Positions 1,309 through 19,337 of a stretch of 64,000 bases of DNA are shown one piece after another. Below the pieces are notes generated by a model, which saw only the letters and a program-made list of their open reading frames with translations, was not told where the DNA came from and searched no databases. The position numbers were made by a program, and so were the translations under genes. Source of the DNA: Candidatus Sulfotelmatobacter sp. (lineage in GTDB: Bacteria; Acidobacteriota; Terriglobia; Terriglobales; Acidobacteriaceae); assembly GCA_017883385.1 (NCBI GenBank), contig JADGNQ010000003.1, forward strand, positions 1 to 64,000, given 5' to 3'. Each line of letters starts with the position of its first letter. Within the stretch, counting starts at the first letter, position 1.

Positions 1309-2574
1309 CTACGCCCTGATCGCTTCTTGCAGAACTTCCCGTAAACGCTTTGCAACTACCATATCTTCCCCGGGCTGCAACATCCACACCCCGACAACGA
1401 TGGTGTTCGGTCCGCCCGGCAATCCCGCGCTCGCAGGGGCACCTCCGGTCGATGGATTCAGCTCAATGCGCGGTTTGCCTTCCCGCATTTTTTGCATGAT
1501 TTCCGCGCCCGTAGTTTTGATTCGATTCTGGTCGTAAGTGATGAGCAGATGCGGAACATGATTGGCAACTTCGGGAATGAAGATCTGAGTCTGTACCGCT
1601 GGAATCGCGCTCAGATGTTTGGCAATACGATCAGCCCGTTGCCGGCACTGTGCTTCGATGGCGGCATCATTCTGGTTCAGGAACCAGTCCACGGCAGCGA
1701 CCAGACCTACGATCTCCTCTTTCGCTACCTTCATTCCACGCCCGATTGTGTTTGAGTTTGGGGAATTGTTTTTCCTGGCCGCGTTGATCAGATCCTTTCT
1801 GCCCAGCAGCAAGCCGGTGCACTGGGGTCCCCGGAGTCCCTTTCCTCCGGAGAACGTCACGAGATCAAACCCCATCTGCGTGTAGTTCCATAGATTCGAA
1901 ATTGGCGGGACATCGGCTGCGGCGTCGTTGAAACATGGCACTCCATGCTGGTGGGCCACTCGCACCCAATCTTCCCGGTTGATTTTCCCTGCACCCGCGT
2001 TGAAGAAGTGGGCCATCACCGTACGCTCGGTGAACGCCTGTTCGTATTGCTCAAGGGTCTCCACCTCCACAAAGAGAATGCCGCAATTGCGGAGGGCATG
2101 ATCATATCCGTAACGATGACTTTTCTGAACGATCACTTCATTCTTAAGCCCAGACATATCTGTTGGAATGTCGAGTATGGGCTGCTCATTTTCCAGGGTA
2201 ATGCATGCTGCCGTACCCACGACGAGCGCCGCGGCAGCGCCGGAAGTAACGAGAGCGGCTTCGCATCGAAGCCGCTTGGCCAGATAGGCTCCGGACGCTT
2301 CGATGAGTTCATTGAGATTTACGGGCCGTCGTGCCGCGAGTTCGATCGCCGCCCGCACCTCTTCCGGCATGGTAGAAGCCGAAAGCACGGTATAGGTGCC
2401 GGCCGCGTTGATAAATGGAGTCACACCGAGCTTCTGATAATAGTCCACGGTCTTAGGCGCCGATTTAGCTGATCCCTGAGCCCCAAGATTTGGGATTCCG
2501 GAAAGCGCGACGCCTCCCGCGAGAACTGCTTGCGCCCCATTGCCCAGGAGCGTTCGCCGACTCATCTGTCGCAT
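1309..2574 (-). CDS. Tat-exported SelA-like PLP-dependent enzyme
   Basis: A 421-residue fold-type I pyridoxal-phosphate enzyme of the SelA-related group (the group that includes DgaE-like D-glucosaminate-6-phosphate ammonia-lyases). S5-R6-R7 followed by a hydrophobic stretch is a Tat signal, so the enzyme acts outside the cytoplasm. The PLP lysine is probably K245 in FSGGKGLRGPQ, and the cofactor-ring aspartate D217 in NDAAAD. It is followed (upstream on the same strand) by an amidohydrolase with 39 bases between them; in Enterococcus and enterobacteria homologues of these two form one cluster (EF_0837 type). A paralogue lies at 16786-18072. The exact substrate is unknown; an amino-sugar acid or a beta-substituted amino acid is inferred. 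Confidence 0.8.
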   Translation of the reverse strand: MRQMSRRTLLGNGAQAVLAGGVALSGIPNLGAQGSAKSAPKTVDYYQKLGVTPFINAAGTYTVLSASTMPEEVRAAIELAARRPVNLNELIEASGAYLAKRLRCEAALVTSGAAAALVVGTAACITLENEQPILDIPTDMSGLKNEVIVQKSHRYGYDHALRNCGILFVEVETLEQYEQAFTERTVMAHFFNAGAGKINREDWVRVAHQHGVPCFNDAAADVPPISNLWNYTQMGFDLVTFSGGKGLRGPQCTGLLLGRKDLINAARKNNSPNSNTIGRGMKVAKEEIVGLVAAVDWFLNQNDAAIEAQCRQRADRIAKHLSAIPAVQTQIFIPEVANHVPHLLITYDQNRIKTTGAEIMQKMREGKPRIELNPSTGGAPASAGLPGGPNTIVVGVWMLQPGEDMVVAKRLREVLQEAIRA

Positions 2575-2613: not shown

Positions 2614-3972
2614 TTAGTCCCGTGGAAAATCGTCTGCTCGCGCCGGCAACGACTCACCACGATCCGGCGTTGTGAAGTACTGCGGACGCGCGTTTTCCCA
2701 ATCGACCATACTGAGACCGGAAGGATCGAACAAAATGCGTCCCGCACGGATGGTCATGCGGGCCATCAATCGTACATTGGCATCCATTTTGGCGACGCCG
2801 CTATCGATGTAACTGAAACGACCCTTCAGTAGTTCCAGAACCGCAATATCCGCATCCTTGCCTACGGATAGCGTGCCCAGTTCGGGCCTGTGAATCTCGC
2901 TGGCTGGATTCACGGTTGAACGTCGGATGACATCGTCTAGGGGGACACCCATCGCTAAGAACTTGGACATTACGTTGTTCATGCTGACGATCGTGAAATT
3001 ACCGGTATGCAAATCGGTAGAGATGGAATCGGGAATAAATCCCTGCTTCTCAGCGCGCTCCGCATTGCGAAACCAGAAGCTTCCGCTTCCATGTCCCACA
3101 TCAAAAATGACCCCGCGGGCGCGGGCCTCGGCCAAGGCGGGATTGATTTTTCCGTCGGCCTGAATAATGGGAAATTGTTGAGCGAAGACGTGAGTATGAA
3201 TGTCGCCCGGTCGCATCTTTTTCAGGATCAAGTCTTCATACGTTCTCTCCGGTCGCGGCCAGAAATCGAACATGACGGGAACTTTGGCGAGCGTGCCGCA
3301 TTCAATCGCACGGTCAACCGCAGCCCAGGGCACGTGTTCCGCATCCCACGCCCCCCCGGTCCAGTAGTGTGCGGTTTTTACTCCCACAATGAGGTCTGGA
3401 TATTTCTTGATCGTGTCGGCACAGAGCTTCGCATCCATCTGGTCCAGGCTTTGCTCGAGTCCACCGCTCATGCCATTGGCCACGATGTTCAGGAAAGCCA
3501 GTACTCGCACCTTGGCACGGTCAATGACTTCTTCCTTTTCCTGGAGGAACGTCTCCGCACCGGAGGTGCCTGCGTCCACTATGGTGGTGACTCCTGATTG
3601 CAACGCCAGATCCGCTGGAATTCCCAGTGGCAAGGCATGCGTTCGCGCTTCAGGGGCGAACCAGTTCAGCGGCGCGCCTCCATGGCCAACATGGTAGTGA
3701 ATATCGATGAGCCCGGGCGTAACGTAGAGTTTCGAGACATCCACGACCTTTCCGGCCTGGTCAGCCGGAATGTTCTTTTCAATGGCAGCGATCTTGCCTT
3801 GGAAAACAGCGACGTCTCGTACTTCATCGATATGATTGGCAGGGTCAATCACGTGTCCGCCCTTTAGCAGCAAGTCATAACGGGGCGCTTGCGCAACGGT
3901 CAGGACAGAAGACGCGAGAGCGATTGCGAGTACCGCAACTATTGCGAGTGGCATCTTGATCCAGTTTTGCAT
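2614..3972 (-). CDS. Exported amidohydrolase/deacetylase, EF_0837-like
   Basis: A 452-residue metal-dependent hydrolase. The frame stays open far upstream, but ATG at 3972 is preceded by AGAGAAGG and opens a clean Sec-type signal peptide (hydrophobic residues about 8-24, then AQAPRYDLL). The amidohydrolase pattern follows: GGHVIDP, TPGLIDIHYHVG with the HxH metal pair, GVKTAHYW carrying the bridging lysine, and SISTDLH near the fourth metal ligand; the C-terminus closes with the usual DADIAVLEL beta-sandwich. In other bacteria relatives are paired with the SelA-like enzyme found next door, and the pair is thought to process amidated or N-acylated sugar acids. Here both are exported, which is unusual. 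Confidence 0.8.
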   Translation of the reverse strand: MQNWIKMPLAIVAVLAIALASSVLTVAQAPRYDLLLKGGHVIDPANHIDEVRDVAVFQGKIAAIEKNIPADQAGKVVDVSKLYVTPGLIDIHYHVGHGGAPLNWFAPEARTHALPLGIPADLALQSGVTTIVDAGTSGAETFLQEKEEVIDRAKVRVLAFLNIVANGMSGGLEQSLDQMDAKLCADTIKKYPDLIVGVKTAHYWTGGAWDAEHVPWAAVDRAIECGTLAKVPVMFDFWPRPERTYEDLILKKMRPGDIHTHVFAQQFPIIQADGKINPALAEARARGVIFDVGHGSGSFWFRNAERAEKQGFIPDSISTDLHTGNFTIVSMNNVMSKFLAMGVPLDDVIRRSTVNPASEIHRPELGTLSVGKDADIAVLELLKGRFSYIDSGVAKMDANVRLMARMTIRAGRILFDPSGLSMVDWENARPQYFTTPDRGESLPARADDFPRD

Positions 3973-4050
3973 AGACCTTCTCTTGTTTGTCGAAGCGAAA
4001 GTGTATCCAGTAGGAATGAGATTGTCACGTTTCCTGGGGCGTGGAGGTCG

Positions 4051-4061
4051 TACAAGTTGTA
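4051..4061. promoter_or_regulatory. Palindrome centred in a divergent promoter region
   Basis: TACAAGTTGTA is a perfect 11-bp palindrome lying almost exactly midway between the start of the amidohydrolase (3972, minus) and of the DUF362 gene (4142, plus). It could be an operator for both directions. A five-pair palindrome has roughly a one in six chance of occurring in 170 bp, so support is weak. Confidence 0.25.
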
Positions 4062-4141
4062 AGAAGATCGCCGCTAGCGTAATCTGATCGCGGTTTTTGC
4101 TCACCCGACGAGAATCACACTCCGGTTCAGGGAACCGACGT

Positions 4142-5302
4142 ATGGATCGCCGTACATTCGTCAAGGCCGGTTGCATTGGAAGTGCCTCGCTGCTGGTGCA
4201 GGGGCTCGATCCGATGATGCGAGCGGACGTGGCTCCGGCTGCAGCGCCGCCTGTCGAACTCCACGGCCTGCCAGGGTACAAACCTTCGCGGCTAGGCATG
4301 CCGGGACTATTTCCAGGCCGAGTTATCGAGGTCCGCGACCCGAACGCTATCGTACGTAATCGCGTTTCACAGTCACGCGTGCGCCAGATGCTGGAGCACG
4401 CAATGAGGGAGTTGACGGGAGAAAAGTCCGCGCAGGCGGCGTGGGCGAAGTTTGTTGAACCCAACGACGTTGTTGGAATCAAGATCAATCCATCGGGTGC
4501 GCCGGCGTGCTGCTCCTCTCCGGAGATCGTGCGCGAGATCATCGGCTCAGTTCAATCAGTTGGTGTTCCCGCACGTAACATCCTGGTTTATGATCGGTAT
4601 TCTTACGAAATGGACATCGGCAGCTATCAAGCCCTGCTGCCTCCAGCCGTGCGCATTGTAGGCATTCAGGACGCCTTTGTGGATTCTTCTGGTTACGATC
4701 CAAGTGTCTATTGCGCGGCTAATTTTTTCGGCGAGTGGGAAACCCGCTCCTACATGGCAAGTATCGTGGCTCAGGTAGTCACGAAGATCATCAACGTGCC
4801 GACGATGAAGGACCATTCGGCTTCCGGTGTCACTGGCGCTCTCAAGAACCTGGCTTACGGCACATTTAACAATGTGGCGCGCTCACATCGTGCGCCCTAT
4901 TCTTTTACCAACCCGCTGGTTGGGCTGATGTGCACGGTCGAACCCTTACGTTCGAAGGCTGTGCTGCATATTATGGACGGCATGCGGCAGGTATGGCACG
5001 GCGGACCTCTGACCCAAGTCCAGGATTTCATCGACCAGCCCGGCCTTCTCCTGGCGGCAACAGACCCAGTCGCTATGGATACCATCGAATTGGAGGCCAT
5101 TGAAAAGAAGCGCCGCGAACGGGGCGTGCCTTCCTTGTGGCAACACGATCCGAAGAGCATCACAGCAGACAATAATGATTTTTTTCATGACGCGGCGAAG
5201 AATCTGTTCTATCGCCAGCCAGGACACGTTGCGGCGGCTGGGAAACTCGGCCTAGGCGTCGCAGATCTGAAGCAGATCGATCACCGTACCCTCTCGGCCT
5301 GA
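4142..5302 (+). CDS. DUF362 family protein with Tat signal
   Basis: The frame opens at 4097, but ATG 4142 gives MDRRTFVKAG, a Tat twin-arginine signal with hydrophobic core, so I choose it (386 residues). The body matches the DUF362 family: a GIKINPSG strand, an NILVYDRY strand, the family core in HSASGVTGALKNLAYG, and a late ATDPVAMDT helix. The family's reaction is not known to me; some members carry Fe-S clusters, but no ferredoxin-like CxxCxxC is present here. It heads a same-strand set: a PQQ-type propeller 5 bases later, then an overlapping ApbE and an unknown secreted protein. This order suggests an extracytoplasmic redox or cofactor role, by context only. Confidence 0.75.
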   Translation: MDRRTFVKAGCIGSASLLVQGLDPMMRADVAPAAAPPVELHGLPGYKPSRLGMPGLFPGRVIEVRDPNAIVRNRVSQSRVRQMLEHAMRELTGEKSAQAAWAKFVEPNDVVGIKINPSGAPACCSSPEIVREIIGSVQSVGVPARNILVYDRYSYEMDIGSYQALLPPAVRIVGIQDAFVDSSGYDPSVYCAANFFGEWETRSYMASIVAQVVTKIINVPTMKDHSASGVTGALKNLAYGTFNNVARSHRAPYSFTNPLVGLMCTVEPLRSKAVLHIMDGMRQVWHGGPLTQVQDFIDQPGLLLAATDPVAMDTIELEAIEKKRRERGVPSLWQHDPKSITADNNDFFHDAAKNLFYRQPGHVAAAGKLGLGVADLKQIDHRTLSA

Positions 5303-5307
5303 ATTGA

Positions 5308-6360
5308 ATGACGACGGAAACAGGGAAGCCCAAAGATCCGGGAGACTGGCCCACGCTGCTCAAAGATAACGCCCGCACTGGAGGACAGCCGCTATATCCG
5401 GTACGGTCGCCGGAACGAGCTGTTTGGCAGTATCGTGCCGGAAGTTCTGTGCGTTCGGCGCCTGTACTTGAAGGCGGCATTTTGTATGTGGCGTCTGTCA
5501 ACGGAGTGCTGCACGCCATTGACGTGGTCACGGGCACGGCAAAATGGAAATTTCAGGCGGCGGGTCAGGTTCATTCCACGCCTTCGCTTTCCGAAAATCG
5601 AATTCTGTTCGGATGCGATGACGGCAAAGTGTATGCACTTGATCGGCATGCCGGAAGCAAGGTGTGGGAAGCTCCGACTGGAGCTGAAGTTTGGGCTTCT
5701 CCCGTGGTTCGCAGCGGAGTTGTGTTTTTTGGAAGTGCCGACGCGCGGGCTTACGCCGTTGACGCCGCGACCGGGCGGACACTATGGGTCCAGGAACTTG
5801 GCGGAAGAATCTGTTCCACTATTTATGCCGCCGAGCAGCAACTCTACCTGGGATGCGGAGACGGCAAAGTGTATAGCCTCGACTCCTCGTCCGGAAAAAC
5901 ATTGTGGAGTACGCCTACGGGGAATGGCATTGACTCATCCCCAGCCCAGGCTGGTGACCTGCTCCTCATCGGCTCTGAAGATTTTCTGCTGTATGCGATG
6001 AACTCTGATTCCGGAGAGGTGCGCTGGAAATACGAAACAGGATTAGGCATCGCGTCTTCACCAGCAGTTTCGGGCGACTTGGCAGTCATCGGCAGCAAGG
6101 ACGGCTTTCTATATGCCCTGGAGACTCAGACAGGTCGCTTGCGCTGGAAAACTGCCGTGGGCGAAGTGGTGACCGCTCCTCCAGTGATCGGCGATGGTGT
6201 TGTCTGTATTCAAGCGGGAGGTACATTCGCCCTGGACAGAGCGACGGGCAATGTAGTGTGGAGAGCGGCTCTGGCCGGGGCCGTGCAGTCGGTTCCGGTG
6301 CTCGGCGGTGAAACTATCTATCTGGCGAGCCTGAGCGGTGAGGTTTATGCGCTGCGATAA
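5308..6360 (+). CDS. PQQ-like beta-propeller protein
   Basis: A 350-residue protein made of about seven propeller blades with the repeating pattern VYALDxxTG, W and SSPAV (for example LYAMNSDSGEVRW and LYALETQTGRLRW). This is the PQQ_2/YVTN-like propeller seen in BamB and quinoprotein-like scaffolds. No signal peptide is visible: it starts MTTETGKPKDPGDW, and an upstream stop is only a few bases away, so it is either cytoplasmic or co-exported. The start is 5 bases after the DUF362 stop, suggesting translational coupling. It has none of the calcium/PQQ ligand motifs of true dehydrogenases, so a structural or binding role is more likely. Confidence 0.8.
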   Translation: MTTETGKPKDPGDWPTLLKDNARTGGQPLYPVRSPERAVWQYRAGSSVRSAPVLEGGILYVASVNGVLHAIDVVTGTAKWKFQAAGQVHSTPSLSENRILFGCDDGKVYALDRHAGSKVWEAPTGAEVWASPVVRSGVVFFGSADARAYAVDAATGRTLWVQELGGRICSTIYAAEQQLYLGCGDGKVYSLDSSSGKTLWSTPTGNGIDSSPAQAGDLLLIGSEDFLLYAMNSDSGEVRWKYETGLGIASSPAVSGDLAVIGSKDGFLYALETQTGRLRWKTAVGEVVTAPPVIGDGVVCIQAGGTFALDRATGNVVWRAALAGAVQSVPVLGGETIYLASLSGEVYALR

Positions 6361-7354
6361 CCGACGTGCCACAGCGCTGATCAGCTTTTTCTTAATCGCT
6401 TCTTTCGTCCATGGCGCTGAAAATCAAGTACTGGTTTACAAAAAGAAGTACATCATGGGCACGGTCTTCGAAGTCGTTGCCTATGATCAATCTTCTGAAC
6501 ATGCCTCCGATGCGATCGAGAAGGCGTTTCAGGAGATCGTTCGCATCGATGATCTGCTGAGCAACTACAAACCTGACAGCGCCCTCAGTAACTTGAACCG
6601 CTCCGCTCACTTTCACGCAGAAAAGGTTCCCTCCGACTTGTACCGTGTCATCGACCAGGCCGTGCAGTTTTCCAGGCTTTCGGACGGAAAGTTTGACATC
6701 TCCATCGCGCCTTTGGTGGATTTGTGGAAAGCTGCGCTGCGCGGCGAAGGCACGCCTTCGCGGGCGCGACAAGAAGAAGTTCGAAGTTGCGTCGGCTACG
6801 AAAGGATCGAACTAACGCCCCCGGACCGGATCAGTTTTCGCTCTTCCTGTTTGCAGTTGGACTTGGGCGCTATTGGCAAAGGCTATGCTGTAGACCGGGC
6901 GGCTGAAGTGCTGCACTCTCTGGGAATCCGCAATGCTTTGGTCAACGCGGGGGGTAGCACGATTCTCGCGATGGGGGCTCCTCCCAACCAGAAAGCATGG
7001 CTTGTACACTTGAGAGATCCCTCGAATAAGATAGATCCGCAGGTCATGCTCAAAGATGAAAGTGTGTCCACGTCGGAGCAGACAGCGCCCAGTTTGCTGG
7101 GGAACGATTCAGCCGGCCATATCATTGATCCGGATACAGGACTGCCTCTGAAAACGGTGTTTGCGGTCAGTGCCGTTTCAAGGACCGCGACGGCATCGGA
7201 CGCGCTGTCGACTACCTTGCTGCTGCTCGGTCCGGCGAAGGGCAAGGCGTTGATCAAGAATATGGCGGAGGTCTCTGCGGTTTGGATTTCACGCGAGGCA
7301 CAGGTGGAAACAGCGACTGGCGGTCCGCAGATTCTGTTTGGCAGAGGCTTATAG
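6338..7354 (+). CDS. apbE: FAD:protein FMN transferase (ApbE family)
   Basis: Transfers FMN from FAD to a Thr/Ser of target proteins on the outer face of the membrane. A signal peptide spans about residues 8-26 (ALISFFLIASFVHGA). Family motifs are GTVFEVVAY, DDLLSNYKPDS, the FAD-binding DLGAIGKGYAVDRA, VNAGGS, and the C-terminal TASDALSTTLLLLG with the metal aspartate. The start is either GTG 6338 or ATG 6347, the latter behind GGTGAGG; both overlap the propeller gene by 14-23 bases. No FMN_bind target with a DxxSGAT motif is seen in this window, so the substrate lies elsewhere or is one of the neighbours. Confidence 0.9.
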   Translation: MRFMRCDNRRATALISFFLIASFVHGAENQVLVYKKKYIMGTVFEVVAYDQSSEHASDAIEKAFQEIVRIDDLLSNYKPDSALSNLNRSAHFHAEKVPSDLYRVIDQAVQFSRLSDGKFDISIAPLVDLWKAALRGEGTPSRARQEEVRSCVGYERIELTPPDRISFRSSCLQLDLGAIGKGYAVDRAAEVLHSLGIRNALVNAGGSTILAMGAPPNQKAWLVHLRDPSNKIDPQVMLKDESVSTSEQTAPSLLGNDSAGHIIDPDTGLPLKTVFAVSAVSRTATASDALSTTLLLLGPAKGKALIKNMAEVSAVWISREAQVETATGGPQILFGRGL

Positions 7355-8995: not shown

Positions 8996-10330
8996 TTATC
9001 GGGCCTTGGAATCGGACATGCGCACGTCCATCGCCTTCAGCGCCAAGCCGCGGGCTACCGATGTGAACTCGTTCCCGCTTCGAATTCGATTCTCTCCAAA
9101 TCGTGTTTCGAAGATTTTCCTTACCGCTGGAACAAATGAAGAGCCCCCCGTCAGGAAAACCATGTCGACGTCCTGCGGCATAACGCCGGACGAACTGAGG
9201 AGAGAATCGACGCAGGCTGCGATCTGTCCAAGCTCGTCACAGATCCACTCTTCGAAGGATGCTCGTTCCACCATCGCCTCCAAATCCACAAACCCATCCG
9301 AAAACTGAAACTTGGCGACCGGGTTATTCGACAAATCGACCTTAACCTTTTGCACGGCGCGGTGTAGGTGGAATCCGAGATCCTCCTTTATGAAGTGAAT
9401 GAGCGCCCCAATCTTCTCTGGTTCAAGCGATTGTGCGTGGACGCCCCTAAGCATGTTCAACACGTCTCTGCCTCTTAATAGGGACAGATGATGCCAACGC
9501 TCCAGTCTTATATAGACCCAGTTTGGAACGGTCAGGATCTTGCCCAGCGAGCGCAACTGCGATCCGGCTCCAAGAGCCGGAGACACGAGGTGCCTGATGA
9601 TCTTTGCATCAAAGGAATCTCCTGCTATGCCCACTCCTGCGTTACCCACGATGTCGCCCGATACTCTACCTCTTCGACGAACAGTGGGGCCGACGTGAAC
9701 CAAAGAGAAGTCGCTCGTGCCGCCGCCGAAATCCCCAATGAGGATGAGTTCGTCATGATCAAGCATAGATTCGTAATAGTGAGCCGCTGCTACCGGTTCC
9801 ATCTCGAACTCTACGGACTCATAGCCCGCTAACTCAAAGGCCGATCGAAGCCGGCCCTCTGCATAACCGTCATCTGCCTGGTTCTCTGCTCCCACAAAAT
9901 GAACCGGCCTTCCGATTACTGCTGACCTGATGTTGATTCCAAACTGTTGCTCAGCCTTTTCGCGCAGGTCCCTGAGAATCCTGGCGATTAGATCTTCGAT
10001 CGTGTACCGTCGACCGAAAACCTCCGTGCCGTGAAGAGTGCGACTACTCAGGAACGACTTGAGGGATTGAATAAGGCGACCCTTCACGTCCGCCGAAAGA
10101 TACTGCTCTATGCCCTCCGGCCCCGTCCATGATTTGAGAGTATTCGCGCCACCTTCCCTCACCTGCTGAAGGTACAGCAGCGATCGATAGGCGTCAGTCA
10201 AGCTCCCCAAGTAGGGAAACTTAGCAAGCTGAACCTCGTCTGAGCGGCCGGCAAAGGCGATTGAACTGTTGGTTGTCCCGAAGTCGATGCCGATCGCGAC
10301 TTTGCTCGCTTGGGAAGTTGGCGAATCCAT
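8996..10330 (-). CDS. Hsp70-family ATPase, YegD-like
   Basis: The actin-like ATPase fold is complete: phosphate-1 loop IGIDFGTTNSSIAFA, phosphate-2 loop LIGDFGGGTSDFSLV and adenosine motif FLTGGSSFVPAVRKIF. The protein (444 residues) ends soon after, so the substrate-binding domain of DnaK is absent, as in YegD. ATG 10330 is preferred because it lies just before the conserved start of the fold; a GTG at 10396 would add 22 residues. Partners are unknown; it stands alone between convergently and divergently placed genes, with no DnaJ or GrpE nearby. Confidence 0.85.
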   Translation of the reverse strand: MDSPTSQASKVAIGIDFGTTNSSIAFAGRSDEVQLAKFPYLGSLTDAYRSLLYLQQVREGGANTLKSWTGPEGIEQYLSADVKGRLIQSLKSFLSSRTLHGTEVFGRRYTIEDLIARILRDLREKAEQQFGINIRSAVIGRPVHFVGAENQADDGYAEGRLRSAFELAGYESVEFEMEPVAAAHYYESMLDHDELILIGDFGGGTSDFSLVHVGPTVRRRGRVSGDIVGNAGVGIAGDSFDAKIIRHLVSPALGAGSQLRSLGKILTVPNWVYIRLERWHHLSLLRGRDVLNMLRGVHAQSLEPEKIGALIHFIKEDLGFHLHRAVQKVKVDLSNNPVAKFQFSDGFVDLEAMVERASFEEWICDELGQIAACVDSLLSSSGVMPQDVDMVFLTGGSSFVPAVRKIFETRFGENRIRSGNEFTSVARGLALKAMDVRMSDSKAR

Positions 10331-10537
10331 TCGGGGTGTCTTCAATTGGCGGTGTGGAACTGCAATCGTGTGTTTGACGTCAAGCAATCCTAACACTCAC
10401 AATTTCCCGGGAACCGTCAGCGAACTAGGTGAATGGCCATAAAATCTACCTGGTTGCTGATCCCTTCCACAACGGACTAGGCTCTGTGTCTTAGGAAGCG
10501 AAAGTGTGAAGGGATGAAGTAAGGAAAGGCGGAGAAC

Positions 10538-11422
10538 GTGAAAACGAAGATGGATCGTTTTTGGATATTAATGGCGATCGTGCTTTGTACTGTTGCGGGA
10601 ACTGCGGCACAGGAACGGCGAATCACTGCGCGAGAGGTGGTTGCGGAGATACAGAAGCAGGTCGGGGTGGAATGGAGAAAGGAGACGGTGGACACGTTCA
10701 AAGCCGGGAATCCAGATACCGCAGTGACGGGAATTGCAGTGACCATGATGGCGACCATGGATGTTCTGCAACGTGCGTCGGCAAAGGGCTTGAATTTCGT
10801 CATCACGCATGAGCCGACTTTTTATGCTCACTTAGACACGCCCGAAGGTATGCCCGAAAGCGATCCAGTGTGGGCGGAAAAACGGGCGTTCATTGAAAAG
10901 CATGGAATGGTGGTATGGCGTTTTCACGATCACTGGCACATGCGCAAGCCAGACGGGATTGAAGCAGGAATGGTGCATTCGCTTGGGTGGGAGAAGTTCC
11001 AGAACTCCGAGAACCAGTATCTGTTTGTTATGCCCGAAACTACGGTTAAGAAACTGGCGGAGGAGGTGGCGAACAAGCTGGACTCGCCGGTGGTGCGCGT
11101 GGTGGGCGAGCCGGGGATGAAGGTGACCAAGGTCGGGTTTAGTCCAGGGGCAGCGGGGTTCCAGACAGAGACGCATGCACTGGAGCGGGATGATGTGCAG
11201 GTATTGCTGGTTGGAGAAACGCGCGAATGGGAGACGGTGGAATATGCGGCCGACGCGGTGACACAGGGACGCAATAAGGCGTTGATTGTGATTGGACATG
11301 TTCCGAGCGAGCAGGGCGGGATGGAGGAATGCACACGTTGGTTGAACGGATTCGTGAAGAAGGTGCCAGTTGAGTTCGTGGCGGCGAAGGAACCGTTTTG
11401 GACCGTGAGCGAGAAAAAGTGA
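10538..11422 (+). CDS. Secreted Nif3-like dinuclear-metal protein
   Basis: A 294-residue Nif3/YbgI-like protein. Metal-ligand regions are recognisable: FVITHEPTFY (usually THHP), WRFHDHWH, and GHVPSEQGG near the C-terminus. Family members bind two metals and some open GTP cyclohydrolase-like rings, but the true substrate is unsettled. This one is unusual in having a signal peptide (FWILMAIVLCTVAGTAA), so it should act outside the cytoplasm. GTG 10538 is chosen because GGCGGAG lies four bases upstream; ATG 10550 is an alternative. The neighbours do not suggest a pathway. Confidence 0.75.
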   Translation: MKTKMDRFWILMAIVLCTVAGTAAQERRITAREVVAEIQKQVGVEWRKETVDTFKAGNPDTAVTGIAVTMMATMDVLQRASAKGLNFVITHEPTFYAHLDTPEGMPESDPVWAEKRAFIEKHGMVVWRFHDHWHMRKPDGIEAGMVHSLGWEKFQNSENQYLFVMPETTVKKLAEEVANKLDSPVVRVVGEPGMKVTKVGFSPGAAGFQTETHALERDDVQVLLVGETREWETVEYAADAVTQGRNKALIVIGHVPSEQGGMEECTRWLNGFVKKVPVEFVAAKEPFWTVSEKK

Positions 11423-13484: not shown

Positions 13485-15128
13485 TCAATGCGGAAGCGAA
13501 AAGCTGAAGACATCGCTTCCTGCTGCGATCGCGACGTATTGGACTCCGTCGACCATGTAGGTCATCGGCGAAGCGCGCATCGATTGGCCGGTGTTGAAGT
13601 GCCAGAGCGCACGGCCAATCCGCGCATCGACCACTTCCAGAGATCCGGCATCATCCCCAAAGAACACCAATCCACCGGCGGTGGTTAGCGTCCCTCCCCA
13701 GGAATCGCCGCGGCCGACCTGGGGATAGCGCCACACTGATTTGCCCTCGGACACGGAGTACGCCACCAGTGTCTTCTGAGCGTGTTCATCCGGGAGAAGT
13801 GTCGTGCCGGTACCGTAGAAGGTCTCGCCTGGGGTAAACGGTTTTGGCTTACTAAAAAACAGGTTGCAACTCTCAAGCGCCATGACATAGAAGAGCCCGG
13901 TCTCCGGATTGTAAGAAGGCGAAAACCAATTGGTCGCGCCGTTGATGCTGGGGCAGATGGAGGTGCCTTGCGCGGTCGGAATTCGACCCGACAGAATGGG
14001 GCGGCCAGACGCGTCGATGCCGGTGGCCCAGTTGAGCTTTTGCACGAATGGCGTCGCGCGGAGAAATTTGCCAGTCGCGCGATCGAGAACATAGAGAAAT
14101 CCGTTGCGATTGGCCTGCACCAAAAGGTGTTGGATTGCGCCACCTTCTTCGACATCCACCAGCACGGGTGTTTCATTGGCGTCAAAGTCGTACAGGTCGT
14201 GAGGCGTGAACTGGAAATACCACTTCAGTTGTCCCGTGTCTGCGTCGAGCGCCAAAACACAAGCCGTATAGAGGTCGTCGCCGGGGCGGGAATCTCCCAC
14301 AAAATCGGGCGCAGCATTGCTGGTTGTCCAATACACGGTGTTGAGCTTGGGGTCGTAGGTGCCGGGCATCCAGGTCGTCCCACCGCCATGCAGGTACGAA
14401 TCGCCGGGCCAACTCACGGAGCCGAATTCTCCTGGACCTGGAATCGTCCAGAAATGCCATCTCAATTTTCCAGTCAACGCGTCATGGGCCTCAAGGAAGC
14501 CGCGTACGCCCGAGTCTCCGCCGGACGTGCCGACGATCACTTCGTCTTTCACGACGAGGGGAGCGCTGGTGGCGCCATAGTGCTTCGCCTTGTCCGCGTA
14601 TGCAATGTCCCACACCAAGTTTCCCGAGCGGGCATCGAGGCACAGCAGATGGGCATCGTCGGTTTCCATATAGACAAAGTTTCGCCATACGCCAACGCCG
14701 CGGTTATGGTGAGATGCGGCGTCGTCCAGTAGTCCTCCGCTTACGGGCCGTTGGTGATGCCACACGACGCGCCCCGTTCGCGCATCCAGTGCAAATGCGT
14801 CGTTGGCCGAAGTGACGTACATCATGCCGTTGACGACCACCGGGGTCACTTCGAGTCTTTCAGAATTGCCAGGATGGAACACCCACGACGCGCGCAGTTG
14901 TGCCACGTTCTGCGGATTAATTTCGCCCAGGCTGCTGTAGCGGCGTCCGGTGTAGTCGCCGTTGTAGGAAGTCCAGTTGGCGCCGACCGGTTGTGCGAGC
15001 AAGTCCTCTGCGCTTAAGTTCACGGCAGTGCCGCTGGGGGATTGCCCCTGTTGCGCAGTGGCCGTCGAGCCGGCCATTCCACACGCGGCAAGCAAGGCCA
15101 GGGCGAATACTTTGCTGGGTGGATTCAC
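13485..15128 (-). CDS. PQQ-dependent alcohol dehydrogenase-like quinoprotein
   Basis: An eight-bladed quinoprotein of 547 residues. GTG 15128 is chosen: GGGGAGA lies about eight bases upstream and it sits one base past the stop of the upstream gene; it opens a signal with an LAAC lipobox-like end. Recognisable motifs are SNAAPDF with the metal-ligand Asn, RPGDDLYT, and TPHDLYDFDANE holding the catalytic Asp. Differences from methanol/ethanol dehydrogenases: the vicinal Cys-Cys ring is replaced by DDAASHHNRG, and the usual Glu metal ligand (SGAEFGVRG) is Asp here (SGGDSGVRG). The D-F-D after the catalytic Asp resembles lanthanide-type enzymes. No cytochrome c domain is attached. Electron acceptor and alcohol/sugar substrate are unknown. 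Confidence 0.8.
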   Translation of the reverse strand: MNPPSKVFALALLAACGMAGSTATAQQGQSPSGTAVNLSAEDLLAQPVGANWTSYNGDYTGRRYSSLGEINPQNVAQLRASWVFHPGNSERLEVTPVVVNGMMYVTSANDAFALDARTGRVVWHHQRPVSGGLLDDAASHHNRGVGVWRNFVYMETDDAHLLCLDARSGNLVWDIAYADKAKHYGATSAPLVVKDEVIVGTSGGDSGVRGFLEAHDALTGKLRWHFWTIPGPGEFGSVSWPGDSYLHGGGTTWMPGTYDPKLNTVYWTTSNAAPDFVGDSRPGDDLYTACVLALDADTGQLKWYFQFTPHDLYDFDANETPVLVDVEEGGAIQHLLVQANRNGFLYVLDRATGKFLRATPFVQKLNWATGIDASGRPILSGRIPTAQGTSICPSINGATNWFSPSYNPETGLFYVMALESCNLFFSKPKPFTPGETFYGTGTTLLPDEHAQKTLVAYSVSEGKSVWRYPQVGRGDSWGGTLTTAGGLVFFGDDAGSLEVVDARIGRALWHFNTGQSMRASPMTYMVDGVQYVAIAAGSDVFSFSLPH

Positions 15129-15129
15129 T

Positions 15130-16536
15130 TCAGCGATTCTCCCCGGAGCCCACCGACACTTCCTGGAGAGAACCACGGTCCAGCCCCTTGGAATCCTCCA
15201 GATGAAGCGAGATGCGGGCGGGTTTTCCAGATGCAGCGACCTCAGTTTCGAGCGAGACGAGTTCGGCTGGATCCACGTCGGCCATGGGTACGCTTTCTAA
15301 CACCGCACCATGTTCGTTGTAGAAGTGTGCGACCAGGCGTCCGGCGAAAAACACTCCGAAGGAGCCAGAGAGTGCGATCTTGCCATTCTCCAAACGTGTG
15401 GCTCGAAGCGGGCGTACAACGGTCCCGGCATCTGTCACGCCATGAAATTCGCTTCCGGCGCGGGTAGGGAACCATTCGGTATCCAGGCTGCAGGCCTCGC
15501 TAGGACGCAGTTTGCAGAGAGGAGAATTAATTTCGGCTTCCAAGTAATGCGGAGATCCATCTCCTCCCGAGCTCATCGAAGCCTCGCCGTCGGCACTCAA
15601 CCTCACTTCTGGACCGTTCGTCCAAAAGATGACCGACGCTTTGCCCGGATAAGCTCGCGACTCTTCAACTTGGAAGCGTTCGGCCATTGCGTACTTGCTG
15701 CTGCCATCGACCACGGCAAGCCAGCCTGCCGTCGAGTCCAGCCACAGTTCGGCCGCCATGTGGACATAATGCAGAGTGAACAGACCATCCTCTCTGATCG
15801 AGACCGCGGGATTTTCCGCCGGGCCGAAACGGACGTGGTAGCGATTGAGATAGCTGCTCGCTGGATTCGCCGGGGTGAACGTCCGGAACTCATGGTTGAA
15901 TCGCGATGGATCGCCAGAGTCGCCCGTATCGTATTGCGAGACCGACTGCATCGACCATTCCACGGTGTGCCCGGTCGTGTTCTTCATGGTGGCGTGAAAA
16001 TCTATTCGCGGAGAGTCGGCGTCCAGGCGAATCGTCCGCTGGAACTGAATCCCGGTCCGAGGATCGGCCGGTGACGTCACTTCCACTTCGCAGTGCTCCC
16101 CTTCCGAAATCTTTCGAAAGGAGTAAACCCCATCGTCGATCAAGTCGGAATTTCCCACCCAATGTTGCTCGTCGTCGTTCCCCTCGGGCAAGAGCCAGAG
16201 CTTGTCGCCGCCATAGTTGAACCATTGGCTCTCAGTTGGCGGCAGATATTTGCCTTCATATTTCGGATTGACGAAAAGATAAGAGTGTCCCGCGAAAGTC
16301 ACCTGTATCAGCCGCCCGCCGTTCTGCGGCAGCACGATCAGTTGAACCCAGCGATTGGAGAGTCGCTGCGCGTGCCAACCCCTATAGTCCGCGGGCTCCA
16401 CCTGGCAGGCGGAACTCGCGGGCGCACGCGGTTCGCTCTTAGTCTGAGCAACCGTAACGCCCAGTCCGAGAATGCCAAAGACAAGAATCCCGGCCAGGTG
16501 CCTTATCAGTTTCGGACTGAGAAGATGCAATGTCAT
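15130..16536 (-). CDS. Secreted mutarotase-like protein (resembles DUF4380)
   Basis: ATG 16536 gives a 468-residue protein with a signal peptide (LAGILVFGILGLGVTVAQ). The body has the pattern of galactose-mutarotase-like beta-sandwich proteins labelled DUF4380: RLSNRWVQLIVLPQNGG, HSYLFVNPKYEG, WFNYGGDKLWLLPEGN, PRIDFHATMKN and WSMQSVSQYDTG. Such folds bind or epimerise sugars, but the catalytic His/Glu cannot be assigned with confidence. It is translationally coupled to the quinoprotein (its stop and the next GTG are one base apart), so the two probably act together on an extracellular sugar. The promoter region is shared with the divergent PLP enzyme. Confidence 0.7.
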   Translation of the reverse strand: MTLHLLSPKLIRHLAGILVFGILGLGVTVAQTKSEPRAPASSACQVEPADYRGWHAQRLSNRWVQLIVLPQNGGRLIQVTFAGHSYLFVNPKYEGKYLPPTESQWFNYGGDKLWLLPEGNDDEQHWVGNSDLIDDGVYSFRKISEGEHCEVEVTSPADPRTGIQFQRTIRLDADSPRIDFHATMKNTTGHTVEWSMQSVSQYDTGDSGDPSRFNHEFRTFTPANPASSYLNRYHVRFGPAENPAVSIREDGLFTLHYVHMAAELWLDSTAGWLAVVDGSSKYAMAERFQVEESRAYPGKASVIFWTNGPEVRLSADGEASMSSGGDGSPHYLEAEINSPLCKLRPSEACSLDTEWFPTRAGSEFHGVTDAGTVVRPLRATRLENGKIALSGSFGVFFAGRLVAHFYNEHGAVLESVPMADVDPAELVSLETEVAASGKPARISLHLEDSKGLDRGSLQEVSVGSGENR

Positions 16537-16614
16537 GGTTGCTCGTTTCCAACGACCGGCGGCGCTGTCGTCGGGTACTCGAAGCACCCCCGTACTATCG
16601 AAGGCACTTTCATC

Positions 16615-16785: not shown

Positions 16786-18072
16786 ATGGGCACTTCGAAT
16801 TCCAGTCGGCGGTCATTCATAAAATTGGCGGCTGCCACTCCACTTCTCACCCAGATCGCGGCGCGCAATCTCTACGCGCAGGCGGCCACGGCGATCGGCA
16901 AAGATCCTCGACAGAATGTCTACACGCGCCTCGGCGTGCGAACCGTGATCAATTGCCGCGGCACGTGGACTTACCTGAGCGGGTCTCTGGAGTTCCCGGA
17001 AGTTCGCGCCGCCCAAGCCGAGGCGGGGCAGCATTTCGTGAACATGCTGGAACTGCAGCGCGGCGCAGGACGCCGCCTGGCGGAGTTGACCGGCGCCGAA
17101 TCCGGAATGGTGACATCCGGAGCGGCTGGCGCAATGGCGGCCGCGACGGCCGCGTGCATGGCGGGCGACAACGACAAGTACATCTGGCAGCTACCGGACA
17201 CGACCGGACTGAAACATGAAGTGATCATGATGGGAGGCAGGAGCGCGTTCGACAGCGCCATCCGGCTGACCGGCGCGAAACTGGTGCTTGCCTATTCTCC
17301 GGAGGAACTGGCCAACGCCATCAACGAAAACACGGCCATGATTTACACCACGAATCTCGGCGAGAAATTGCAGCGCGAACTTGCCGTGGCGAAAGACCAC
17401 AAGGTTCCGATGTTGCTCGACGATGCCGCAGGAATTCCTCCCGCGGACAACGCTCGGTTGTACGCGCGGATGAAGATTGACCTGTATTGCTTCTCCGGCG
17501 GAAAAGGGCTTCGCGGACCACAGTGCAGCGGTTTGCTGCTCGGGAGAAAAGACCTGATTGAAGCAGCTTTGATGAACTCCGCTCCTCGTGAAGGCTCTGT
17601 TTGCCGCGCCATGAAAGTGGGAAAAGAGGAGGTCGTCGGTTGCGTGACGGCACTGGAGACATGGTTGAATCTGGATGAGAAGAAGGTCTACAGCGAGTGG
17701 AACGCCCGCGTGGATCGCATTCGCAAGCTGGTCGACACCGTCCCCGGCGTGAAGACGGACGTCTTCATCCCCGACGACGGGAATCGCTTTCCCACCCTGA
17801 AAGTTTCCTGGGATCAGGCGGCCTGGGGCTTCACAACATCCGACTGCGTGCGCAAGCTGCGCGAAAACAATCCCGTCATCGAAGTGCTCGGCTCGGACAA
17901 TCCGAGCCTGGTGACTGCGGTGCACGAGGGCAATCCGAACCGGAAAGAACATAAGGAAGCGGATCACATCGAACTGGTCTCCATGACCATACAGCCGGGG
18001 CAGGAGATTATCGTGGGCCAAACATTGCGGGCGATTTTGAGCGCGGCACAAAAAGGAAAATCGGCAAGCTGA
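16786..18072 (+). CDS. Tat-exported SelA-like PLP-dependent enzyme (second copy)
   Basis: ATG 16786 is preceded by AGAAGG at a good distance and starts a Tat signal (SSRRSFIKLAAATPLLTQ); 428 residues. Fold-type I PLP enzyme of the SelA/DgaE-like group, paralogous to the gene at 1309-2574: both share FSGGKGLRGPQC(S/T)G with the PLP lysine (K240 here), LLDDAAG with the ring aspartate, and LLLGRKDLI. Family members catalyse ammonia-lyase or beta-elimination reactions. The next gene, 32 bases on, is a secreted triple-RidA protein; RidA hydrolyses enamine/imine products of PLP lyases, so the two may form a periplasmic deamination pair. Possible control by the TGGTATACCA site upstream. Confidence 0.82.
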   Translation: MGTSNSSRRSFIKLAAATPLLTQIAARNLYAQAATAIGKDPRQNVYTRLGVRTVINCRGTWTYLSGSLEFPEVRAAQAEAGQHFVNMLELQRGAGRRLAELTGAESGMVTSGAAGAMAAATAACMAGDNDKYIWQLPDTTGLKHEVIMMGGRSAFDSAIRLTGAKLVLAYSPEELANAINENTAMIYTTNLGEKLQRELAVAKDHKVPMLLDDAAGIPPADNARLYARMKIDLYCFSGGKGLRGPQCSGLLLGRKDLIEAALMNSAPREGSVCRAMKVGKEEVVGCVTALETWLNLDEKKVYSEWNARVDRIRKLVDTVPGVKTDVFIPDDGNRFPTLKVSWDQAAWGFTTSDCVRKLRENNPVIEVLGSDNPSLVTAVHEGNPNRKEHKEADHIELVSMTIQPGQEIIVGQTLRAILSAAQKGKSAS

Positions 18073-18104
18073 TTCTCACCTCAGAAGTCTGGCAGAAGAT
18101 TCAA

Positions 18105-19337
18105 ATGCGAATACTGCTTACCGGATTGTTGCTCTTGTCCCCGACCGCATTCCACGCTCAGATGCGAGCCGTAGTTCCCGCGCCCGCACCTGCCGCGGCG
18201 AATCGTGTCTACTCGCCCGGTGTGGACGCAGGCGACTACGTCTACGTCTCCGGACAAGGCCCTCGCCGCCCAGACGGCAGCTTGCCGCCAACTTTCGAAG
18301 CCCAGGTCCGGCAGGCTCTGGATAACGTCAAATCGGTCGTTGAGGCCGCGGGTTTGACCATGGATCACGTGGTCTACGCTCAGGTCTATCTTGAGGACGT
18401 CAGCAAGTATCGAGAAGTGAATCAAGCCTTCGCTGAGGTTTTTACCAAGACTCCGCCTGCCCGCGCTGTGTTGGGTGTGGCGAAGCTTCCCGAGCCACCG
18501 GTTCAGATCAATGCCGTAGCCGTGCGCAGTCTCGCGGACCGGCGAGCAGTAGTTCCACCAGGCTACAAGTCAGACGAGTCCGCTTCGCCTGGGATGCTCA
18601 CTCACGACCGCCTGTTCGTTTCCGCCATGCCCGGCAGTGATCCCTCCACCGGCAAGGTTCCTGACGACCCGGCAGCTCAGGTAGATTTCGCTCTCGACCG
18701 CATGAAGGCCGTGCTGGAAGCCGCCGGTCTCGACCTTCGCAACATGGTTTTCGTCAACCCCTACCTGACCCACGACATTCCGATGCGGATCATGAACCAA
18801 CGCTATGCGCTGCGCTTCGAATTCGGCAACACTCCGGCGCGGGCCACCATCGAAGTAGCGAGTCTTCCGGGCGGCACGCACATCGAGTACACCGGCGTCG
18901 CTGTGCGTGACTTGAAGCAAAGGCAAGCCGTTCGCCCCAAGAACATGCCGCCCAGCCCAACAGCGAGTCCATGTGTCTTTGCCGGCGAGACTTTGTATTG
19001 CTCCGCCAAGAGCGGTTTCATTCCTGGACCGCACGGCGGAGTCTATGCGTCCACGACAGCTCACCAACTCCGGCAAACCATGCGCAATCAACTCGACAAC
19101 CTCGAAGAAGCTGGCATGAATTTCGACCAGGTGGTTGCCGCGAACGTTTACCTGGATGATTTGTCAGAGGCGCGGGCGTTCGATGAAGTGTATGTCCAGT
19201 ATTTCAGCCATATCCTGCCGGCACGAACGACCATCGAGCAGATCGCACCCGCCGATCGTACTCCCGACAAAGAAGACCACTATCCGGACTTGGAGCAGCT
19301 ATCGTTCATCGCGGTCCGAAGTCCGGCCAGTCAGTGA
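18105..19337 (+). CDS. Secreted protein of three fused RidA domains
   Basis: After a Sec signal (ILLTGLLLLSPTAFHAQ) come three tandem RidA/YjgF/UK114 domains, about residues 31-145, 155-270 and 285-405. Each has the family ending P-A-R: PPARAVLGV (R120), TPARATIEV (R246) and LPARTTIEQ (R374). This arginine is the residue needed for imine/enamine deaminase activity, so all three domains may be active. Usual RidA is a single 130-residue domain that forms a trimer with active sites at subunit interfaces; a covalent three-domain chain could be a one-chain trimer. It follows the PLP enzyme by 32 bases on the same strand. Confidence 0.88.
   Translation: MRILLTGLLLLSPTAFHAQMRAVVPAPAPAAANRVYSPGVDAGDYVYVSGQGPRRPDGSLPPTFEAQVRQALDNVKSVVEAAGLTMDHVVYAQVYLEDVSKYREVNQAFAEVFTKTPPARAVLGVAKLPEPPVQINAVAVRSLADRRAVVPPGYKSDESASPGMLTHDRLFVSAMPGSDPSTGKVPDDPAAQVDFALDRMKAVLEAAGLDLRNMVFVNPYLTHDIPMRIMNQRYALRFEFGNTPARATIEVASLPGGTHIEYTGVAVRDLKQRQAVRPKNMPPSPTASPCVFAGETLYCSAKSGFIPGPHGGVYASTTAHQLRQTMRNQLDNLEEAGMNFDQVVAANVYLDDLSEARAFDEVYVQYFSHILPARTTIEQIAPADRTPDKEDHYPDLEQLSFIAVRSPASQ

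Follow-up and report, generated by a model that had tools for sequence, protein, structure and literature searches.

The window, by which we mean the whole stretch of DNA analysed, comprises 64,000 nt from Candidatus Sulfotelmatobacter sp. (assembly GCA_017883385.1, contig JADGNQ010000003.1, positions 1 to 64,000, forward strand). It contains a gene for a DgaE-like PLP enzyme with a candidate Tat signal, followed after 32 bases by a gene for a chain of three RidA domains with a candidate Sec signal. This arrangement had been described in a first-pass annotation, and all its elements are present, as judged by the open reading frames, the profile matches and the N-termini (read by eye). RidA normally quenches enamine and imine products of PLP lyases in the cytoplasm. 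The features discussed below are listed here; class A denotes loci in which a DgaE-like PLP gene lies directly upstream of the triple-RidA gene on the same strand.

16786..18072, plus strand: DgaE-like PLP enzyme with candidate Tat signal, 428 aa from ATG (TIGR01437, 168.3 bits)
16804..16824, plus strand: twin-arginine motif SRRSFIK of the PLP signal peptide, from the sequence (RR pair in 47/47 complete class A relatives)
18105..19337, plus strand: triple RidA (3x-RidA) with candidate Sec signal, predicted one-chain trimer, 410 aa, three PF01042 stretches
18105..18158, plus strand: probable Sec signal peptide of the triple RidA, MRILLTGLLLLSPTAFHA, by eye (hydrophobic stretch in 76/79 relatives)
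18462..18464, plus strand: R120 codon, domain 1 (Arg kept in 73/79)
18840..18842, plus strand: R246 codon, domain 2 (Arg kept in 79/79)
19224..19226, plus strand: R374 codon, domain 3 (Arg kept in 60/79)
15130..16587, minus strand: mutarotase-like protein (weak match), Sec-type start by eye, divergent from the PLP gene; the true start may be at about 16536
13485..15176, minus strand: PQQ-type dehydrogenase (TIGR03075), Sec-type start by eye, behind the mutarotase-like gene
1309..2574, minus strand: second DgaE-like PLP enzyme with candidate Tat signal, a paralogue about 41% identical and not part of the pair
2614..4542, minus strand: amidohydrolase/deacetylase gene (NF006689), upstream of the second PLP gene on the same strand

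The amidohydrolase/deacetylase scores 382.4 bits against NF006689 (cut-off 371). The match begins at residue 221, and the listed start of this frame is probably too far upstream. The window also contains a run of DUF362, beta-propeller PQQ_2 and ApbE genes (4097-7354, plus strand), an Hsp70-like gene (8996-10396, minus strand) and a NIF3/DUF34 gene (10538-11422, plus strand).

The N-terminus of the PLP protein, MGTSNSSRRSFIKLAAA, contains a twin arginine, and that of the triple-RidA protein, MRILLTGLLLLSPTAFHAQ, is of the Sec type (both read by eye). Export signals had been ascribed to both proteins, and they recur in the relatives. The arginine pair is present in all class A PLP proteins with complete N-termini (44 with RRx[FLVIM] and three with RRMALK), and a strongly hydrophobic N-terminal stretch is found in 76 of the 79 readable triple RidAs. 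Six of the 79 triple-RidA rows contain a twin-arginine pattern. On inspection by eye, the pattern precedes the likely start in L085 and L163, is unclear in L092, and falls inside the signal in L125, L127 and L131, so that a few triple RidAs may use Tat. We infer from the N-termini that both proteins are located outside the cytoplasm.

Single-domain RidA proteins of related clusters start with a twin arginine in 11/11 rows (10 distinct loci, as L049 and L081 overlap). In nine rows, representing eight loci (L044, L045, L046, L048, L049, L072, L073, L079), the gene of the Tat-signal single RidA directly adjoins that of the second Tat-signal PLP paralogue. A twin-arginine start is also seen in the RidA encoded next to the PLP gene of a Granulicella tundricola plasmid. 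One possibility is that folding precedes Tat export in the case of the single RidA, and that Sec is open to the fused trimer. However, single RidAs with Sec-type starts exist too (L072, L073, L079; by eye), and thus this division is a tendency at most.

The conservation of the pair was analysed at two distances. The near-relative set contains 101 genomes, the own genome and 100 others, 45 of the set being from the same genus. Strong triple-RidA matches, with at least 62% identity over the matched part, were observed in 25 of the 101 genomes, and 23 of these 25 belong to the same-genus subset. In 24 of the 25, a PLP match of at least 74% was found as well; in G057 it comprises only the end of the PLP gene, at the contig start. 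In the 25th genome, G009, the RidA match itself is cut by the contig start. The RidA match is split in G022 and G037, and G004 carries an additional copy that is partial and contains a stop. Weaker matches to RidA, present in 99/101 genomes, are unremarkable.

A scan of named genomes with 19 triple RidAs yielded 89 confirmed stretches, and the best 80 of these 89 loci were analysed. All titles are of the Acidobacteriota type except that of L135, which reads Acidimicrobiia; on the tree, its triple RidA falls among the Acidobacteriota rows, and the record is possibly a mislabelled bin. A DgaE-like PLP gene lies directly upstream on the same strand in 52 of the 80 best loci, counting L092, where the PLP match is broken, and nearby in three more (L144, L147, L151). 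In six loci (L127, L136, L142, L152, L158, L162) the triple RidA is directly preceded by a class I/II aminotransferase gene, identified by PF00155 in five cases and by similarity in L142. In each of these six proteins, the catalytic part is preceded by a TRR or SRR motif and a stretch resembling a signal. One locus is at a contig edge. Neither PLP type was observed in the remaining 18/80 loci, where only homologues of these two were sought. Thus the proposed conservation of the pair holds as frequent adjacency, but strict pairing is rejected.

As a control, DgaE-like or aminotransferase genes account for 11 of the 735 other open reading frames of at least 150 aa in these loci, so that 1.2 such neighbours would be expected among 79, versus 58 observed. 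The small P value for the pairing should not be taken literally, given the relatedness of the rows and the fact that being neighbours was the reason for seeking the aminotransferases. On a tree of 73 rows, 45 rows form one group with DgaE-like partners only. The DgaE label requires five changes (18.4 when labels are shuffled), and the full set of labels requires 10 (19.6 when shuffled). The alignment first left out eight loci, six of which had only a terminal stop and were restored in the 79-row recount (the window and 78 loci, without L132, which has an internal stop, and L157, which is partial). The tree and the fold prediction both used the 73-row set, and thus lack two of the six rows with aminotransferase partners.

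The PLP enzyme of the window matches TIGR01437 with 168.3 bits (E 2.2e-49), far below the cut-off of 385.3, and a further DgaE-type profile with 134.8 bits (cut-off 600). Membership in SelA proper was considered and rejected, as the scores with PF03841 (21.2 bits, cut-off 22.8) and TIGR00474 (25.3 bits, cut-off 267.9) are both below the cut-offs. By sequence, the protein is a distant member of the DgaE/SelA-like group, and from family membership it is plausible that it yields an imine, as had been suggested. The top PDB matches by sequence are level: 105.7 bits with Cap15 (8t7j) and 103.8 bits with the ammonia-lyase homologue DGL (7lc0). The predicted model (pLDDT 86.4, pTM 0.84) matches the same two folds, Cap15 with Z 36.3 and DGL with Z 34.7, the next rows being at about 24. 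The structural alignment with 8t7j has 27% identity.

These matches raise the possibility that the enzyme is an O2-dependent, Cap15-like oxidase or oxygenase in an aerated periplasm, with RidA clearing its imine. Cap15 is the top fold match and is level with DGL by sequence; it is described as a PLP monooxygenase-decarboxylase (PMC7497351), and titles cited in the same paper point to PvdN as a precedent for a periplasmic PLP enzyme. However, the Cap15 product, as described there, is a carboxamide, which in itself needs no RidA, and the histidine-bearing loop of 8t7j is shortened and histidine-free in the window protein. An oxidase of this type seems very unlikely to us.

The residues of the PLP site were counted in 52 acidobacterial sequences, that is, the window protein and 51 others (4/55 PLP rows, L089, L092, L104 and L146, were left out). 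The PLP lysine is conserved in 52/52 and Arg226 in 51/52. Equivalents of His162 and His163 of DGL are absent from all 52 sequences. The column of His163 contains D or E in 47/52, and a histidine occurs nearby in 6/52, so an alternative proton donor is possible. The phosphate-binding Arg301 of DGL is replaced in all 52 sequences, by T in 49, S in two and L in one. In DGL, His163 is reported to protonate the enamine, and the H163A mutant to be nearly fully active yet to release free enamine into solution, with an enamine band near 293 nm (PMC9529869). The residue pattern of the acidobacterial proteins fits a non-phosphate substrate and, possibly, enamine release.

Loss of His163 as a general reason for having a RidA partner is not upheld as a rule. 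The proteobacterial DgaE-like proteins of Paraburkholderia and Aminobacter (L169, L170) keep both histidines and have a RidA gene within 1.5 kb, whereas the haloarchaeal homologue from Haladaptatus (L167) lacks both and has no annotated RidA within 5 kb. Thus the loss of the histidines does not track RidA.

The triple-RidA protein has three PF01042 stretches (193.4 bits for the protein, cut-off 27.3, E 1.3e-57) and scores 187.9 bits with TIGR00004 (cut-off 106.25), which places it in the RidA family. The residues were mapped onto E. coli RidA and then recounted in the 79 rows. The substrate arginine (the PAR arginine, Arg105 in the single-domain protein) is present in all three domains of the window protein, R120, R246 and R374, as had been noted, but not throughout the family. 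Tyr17 is not kept in each domain, the equivalents being Y36, A160 and A287, and neither is Glu120 (Q134, E261, Q398). In Salmonella RidA, alanine in place of the Glu120 or Tyr17 equivalents is reported to have had little effect (PMC4433059).

The three domains are not equally conserved. In domain 2, N231 and R246 are present in 79/79 rows and E261 in 63/79. In domain 3, A287, S300, A301 and K302 are present in 79/79 rows, where E. coli RidA has Tyr17, Ser30, Gly31 and Gln32. The scan patterns VFVNPYLT and RFEFGNTP fall in domain 2, immediately before R246, and thus the conservation of this domain is biased upward. Three equal active sites, as the first-pass annotation would have it, are not supported, given the unequal retention of the arginines (73/79, 79/79 and 60/79 for R120, R246 and R374), only R246 being invariant across the family. 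We take the pattern to indicate one specialised site that involves domain 2 and perhaps domain 3; in plant RidA, the ligand is reported to lie between two subunits, held by the arginine of one, with the glutamate of its neighbour close by (PMC4960622).

The mature triple RidA was modelled with high confidence (AF2, 73 sequences in the alignment, pLDDT 93.0, pTM 0.92). The best whole-chain match of the model is chorismatase 4bps (Z 26.9, rmsd 2.7, 283 aligned residues, 12% identity); after the chorismatases come the FBXO22 chains with Z about 14, and single RidA chains fit each third of the model with Z about 11 to 12. As the chain is predicted to be compact, like a fused trimer, with chorismatase as its best whole-chain match, the triple RidA is likely a one-chain RidA trimer. 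This agrees with the structure anticipated in the first-pass annotation; the idea itself is not new, as 3x-RidA proteins were described earlier (PMC4433059).

The same match leads to a different possibility, namely that the triple RidA has given up imine hydrolysis and is now a YjgF-like one-chain trimer with one new site, acting perhaps on a sugar lactone or a keto acid. Ala287, Ser300, Ala301 and Lys302 are fixed in all 79 rows, whereas domains 1 and 3 are losing their arginines, 18 loci lack both PLP types, enolase-type and amidohydrolase genes lie nearby in L144, L130 and L133, and AtzD provides a precedent for such a chain (PMC3758960). On the other hand, the triple RidA scores above the RidA-family cut-off, R246 and N231 are invariant, and the protein is attached to two different PLP families. 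We hold such a change of function to be quite unlikely.

A divergent gene some 200 to 250 bases away from the start of the PLP gene encodes the mutarotase-like protein. It scores 26.7 bits with PF14315, under the cut-off of 29.4, and 34.9 bits with NF052227 (cut-off 550), and matched no PDB chain at E up to 0.1. The dehydrogenase behind it scores 489.2 bits with TIGR03075, above the cut-off of 480.05, and 540.3 bits with the 'acido-empty-quinoprotein' model, near but under the cut-off of 650. It has no cysteine opposite the vicinal pair of 6zcv. PqqC was sought in the own genome, where the one hit scores 46.7 bits against a cut-off of 240; the 14 control genomes gave no match, so that this search had no positive control. 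As no score exceeded the PqqC cut-off, the dehydrogenase would depend on scavenged PQQ, unless it works without this cofactor. Scavenging by this host is possible, but in Acidobacteria PqqU is reported only from the class Vicinamibacteria (PMC12124388).

The neighbourhood was surveyed by tblastn (E up to 1e-10, more than 60 bits) in the 39 class A loci with more than 5 kb upstream, using the flanking DNA present up to 10 kb. Matches to the second PLP enzyme and the single RidA fell partly on the pair itself and were excluded. Putative homologues were found of the PQQ dehydrogenase in 27 loci, the mutarotase in 24, cytochrome c in 18, a cupin in 16, gluconolactonase in 15, an MFS transporter in 14 and an RraA-like aldolase in 13; the dehydrogenase and the mutarotase are both on the minus strand in 21/39. 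For the cytochrome, lactonase, cupin, aldolase, MFS, IclR and NagB-like genes, the family assignments come from a single locus, L045. No cytochrome c, lactonase or aldolase gene lies beside the pair in the window. Another contig of the same genome (L071, G000:C39) contains a cut DgaE-like gene together with homologues of the PQQ dehydrogenase, IclR, RidA, cytochrome c and lactonase. In L144 (strain KBS 96), enolase-type, TIM-barrel, amidohydrolase and HpcH-aldolase genes surround the PLP and triple-RidA genes on the same strand.

The frequent position of the pair beside sugar-oxidising genes suggests that an amino-sugar-like compound may be degraded outside the cytoplasm. Alternatively, the same exported hand-over from PLP enzyme to RidA could serve another beta-hydroxy amino acid (serine- or threonine-like, a D-amino acid, or one derived from peptidoglycan), the sugar-oxidation neighbours being a separate pathway. 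A different Tat-signal PLP enzyme does precede the triple RidA in 6/80 loci, and 12 of the 39 class A loci lack a PQQ dehydrogenase homologue in the DNA present within 10 kb. However, the homologue is kept in the other 27/39, and the two closest PLP relatives of known reaction, DGL and Cap15, use sugar-derived amino acids. We think a substrate of this other kind unlikely.

The explanation that we favour, giving it an even chance of being right, is a two-enzyme periplasmic deamination module for a non-phosphorylated, glucosaminate-like 2-amino-aldonic acid. The mutarotase-like protein and the PQQ-type dehydrogenase would make the amino acid substrate in the same compartment, joined in some relatives by cytochrome c and gluconolactonase. 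The Tat-exported PLP enzyme would eliminate water from the 2-amino-aldonic acid and release an enamine or imine, which the Sec-exported one-chain RidA trimer would convert to the 2-keto-3-deoxy acid and ammonia. The keto acid would then be imported or cleaved. The module is built on export-type N-termini, domains, a compact predicted fold, recurring pairing and neighbourhood, and a residue pattern, all computed; its location, substrate, reaction, imine hand-over and order of steps are putative. It is supported by the recurrence of the pairing, the RR pairs, the residue pattern, the sugar-oxidation neighbours, and the Tat-signal PLP paralogue with a Tat-signal single RidA. The essential role of ongD in a Pseudoalteromonas strain, described below, is counted as a cytoplasmic parallel. 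Against the module count the scores of the PLP enzyme, far under the DgaE cut-offs and as close to the O2-using Cap15 as to DGL; the acidic residue or nearby histidine that might act as another proton donor; the mismatch between histidine loss and RidA; the missing cytochrome c, lactonase and aldolase beside the pair in the window; the low PqqC score of the genome, below the cut-off; and the 18/80 loci with neither PLP type.

An extended form of the module, which we offer tentatively and consider rather doubtful, is an ATP-free amino-sugar pathway outside the cytoplasm. Its steps would be mutarotation, PQQ oxidation to cytochrome c and opening of the lactone; after deamination by the PLP enzyme, a covalent RidA trimer having one specialised site would hydrolyse the imine, and an exported RraA-like aldolase would carry out the cleavage. 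Export of RidA would follow two routes, as a Tat-dependent single domain folded beforehand or as a mostly Sec-dependent three-domain fusion whose linked subunits meet after export.

Work on RidA has mostly treated it as protecting PLP enzymes of the cytoplasm. If dedicated exported PLP-RidA pairs are real, with one RidA family combined with two kinds of PLP partners, the control of imines would become part of a pathway outside the cytoplasm, and the reason for 3x-RidA fusions would become testable. Such pairs would also open up amino sugars to these soil Acidobacteria.

Several known systems resemble parts of the pair. The OngC-OngD system likewise combines a PLP deaminase and a RidA in one sugar-acid gene cluster: OngC deaminates glucosaminate, and the RidA gene ongD is essential, though unexplained in that pathway, for growth of the Pseudoalteromonas strain on N-acetylglucosaminate (PMC9537276). 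In contrast to the window pair, that deaminase is predicted to be cytoplasmic and is a fold-type III PLP enzyme, and the RidA is single. DGL (7lc0, PMC9529869) shares with the window PLP enzyme the fold, the PLP lysine and Arg226, but the latter has a Tat signal, lacks His162, His163 and Arg301, and is far under the family cut-offs. Cap15 (8t7j; PMC7497351, PMC6384614) is similar in fold, with the identity given above, whereas the window enzyme has a Tat signal, a RidA partner and no loop histidines. The cyanuric acid hydrolase AtzD (PMC3758960) is also a one-chain protein like a YjgF trimer, as is chorismatase (4bps), by fold match only; both catalyse other reactions, and the triple RidA is only 12% identical to chorismatase.

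The 3x-RidA proteins, named in 2015, have three RidA domains per chain and are presumed covalent trimers, and clustering of RidA and PLP genes was already known (Niehaus et al. 2015, PMC4433059). The main text of that paper contains no word that begins with signal or periplasm, and no exported PLP-RidA pair was found among the open-access titles and abstracts listed for exported or periplasmic RidA, exported PLP lyases and periplasmic glucosaminate. The window protein differs from the 3x-RidA proteins described there in its export signal and its unequal sites, of which only R246 is invariant. Among the open-access matches listed, the export signal on both partners, the change of partner, the unequal sites and the sugar-oxidation setting appear to be new.
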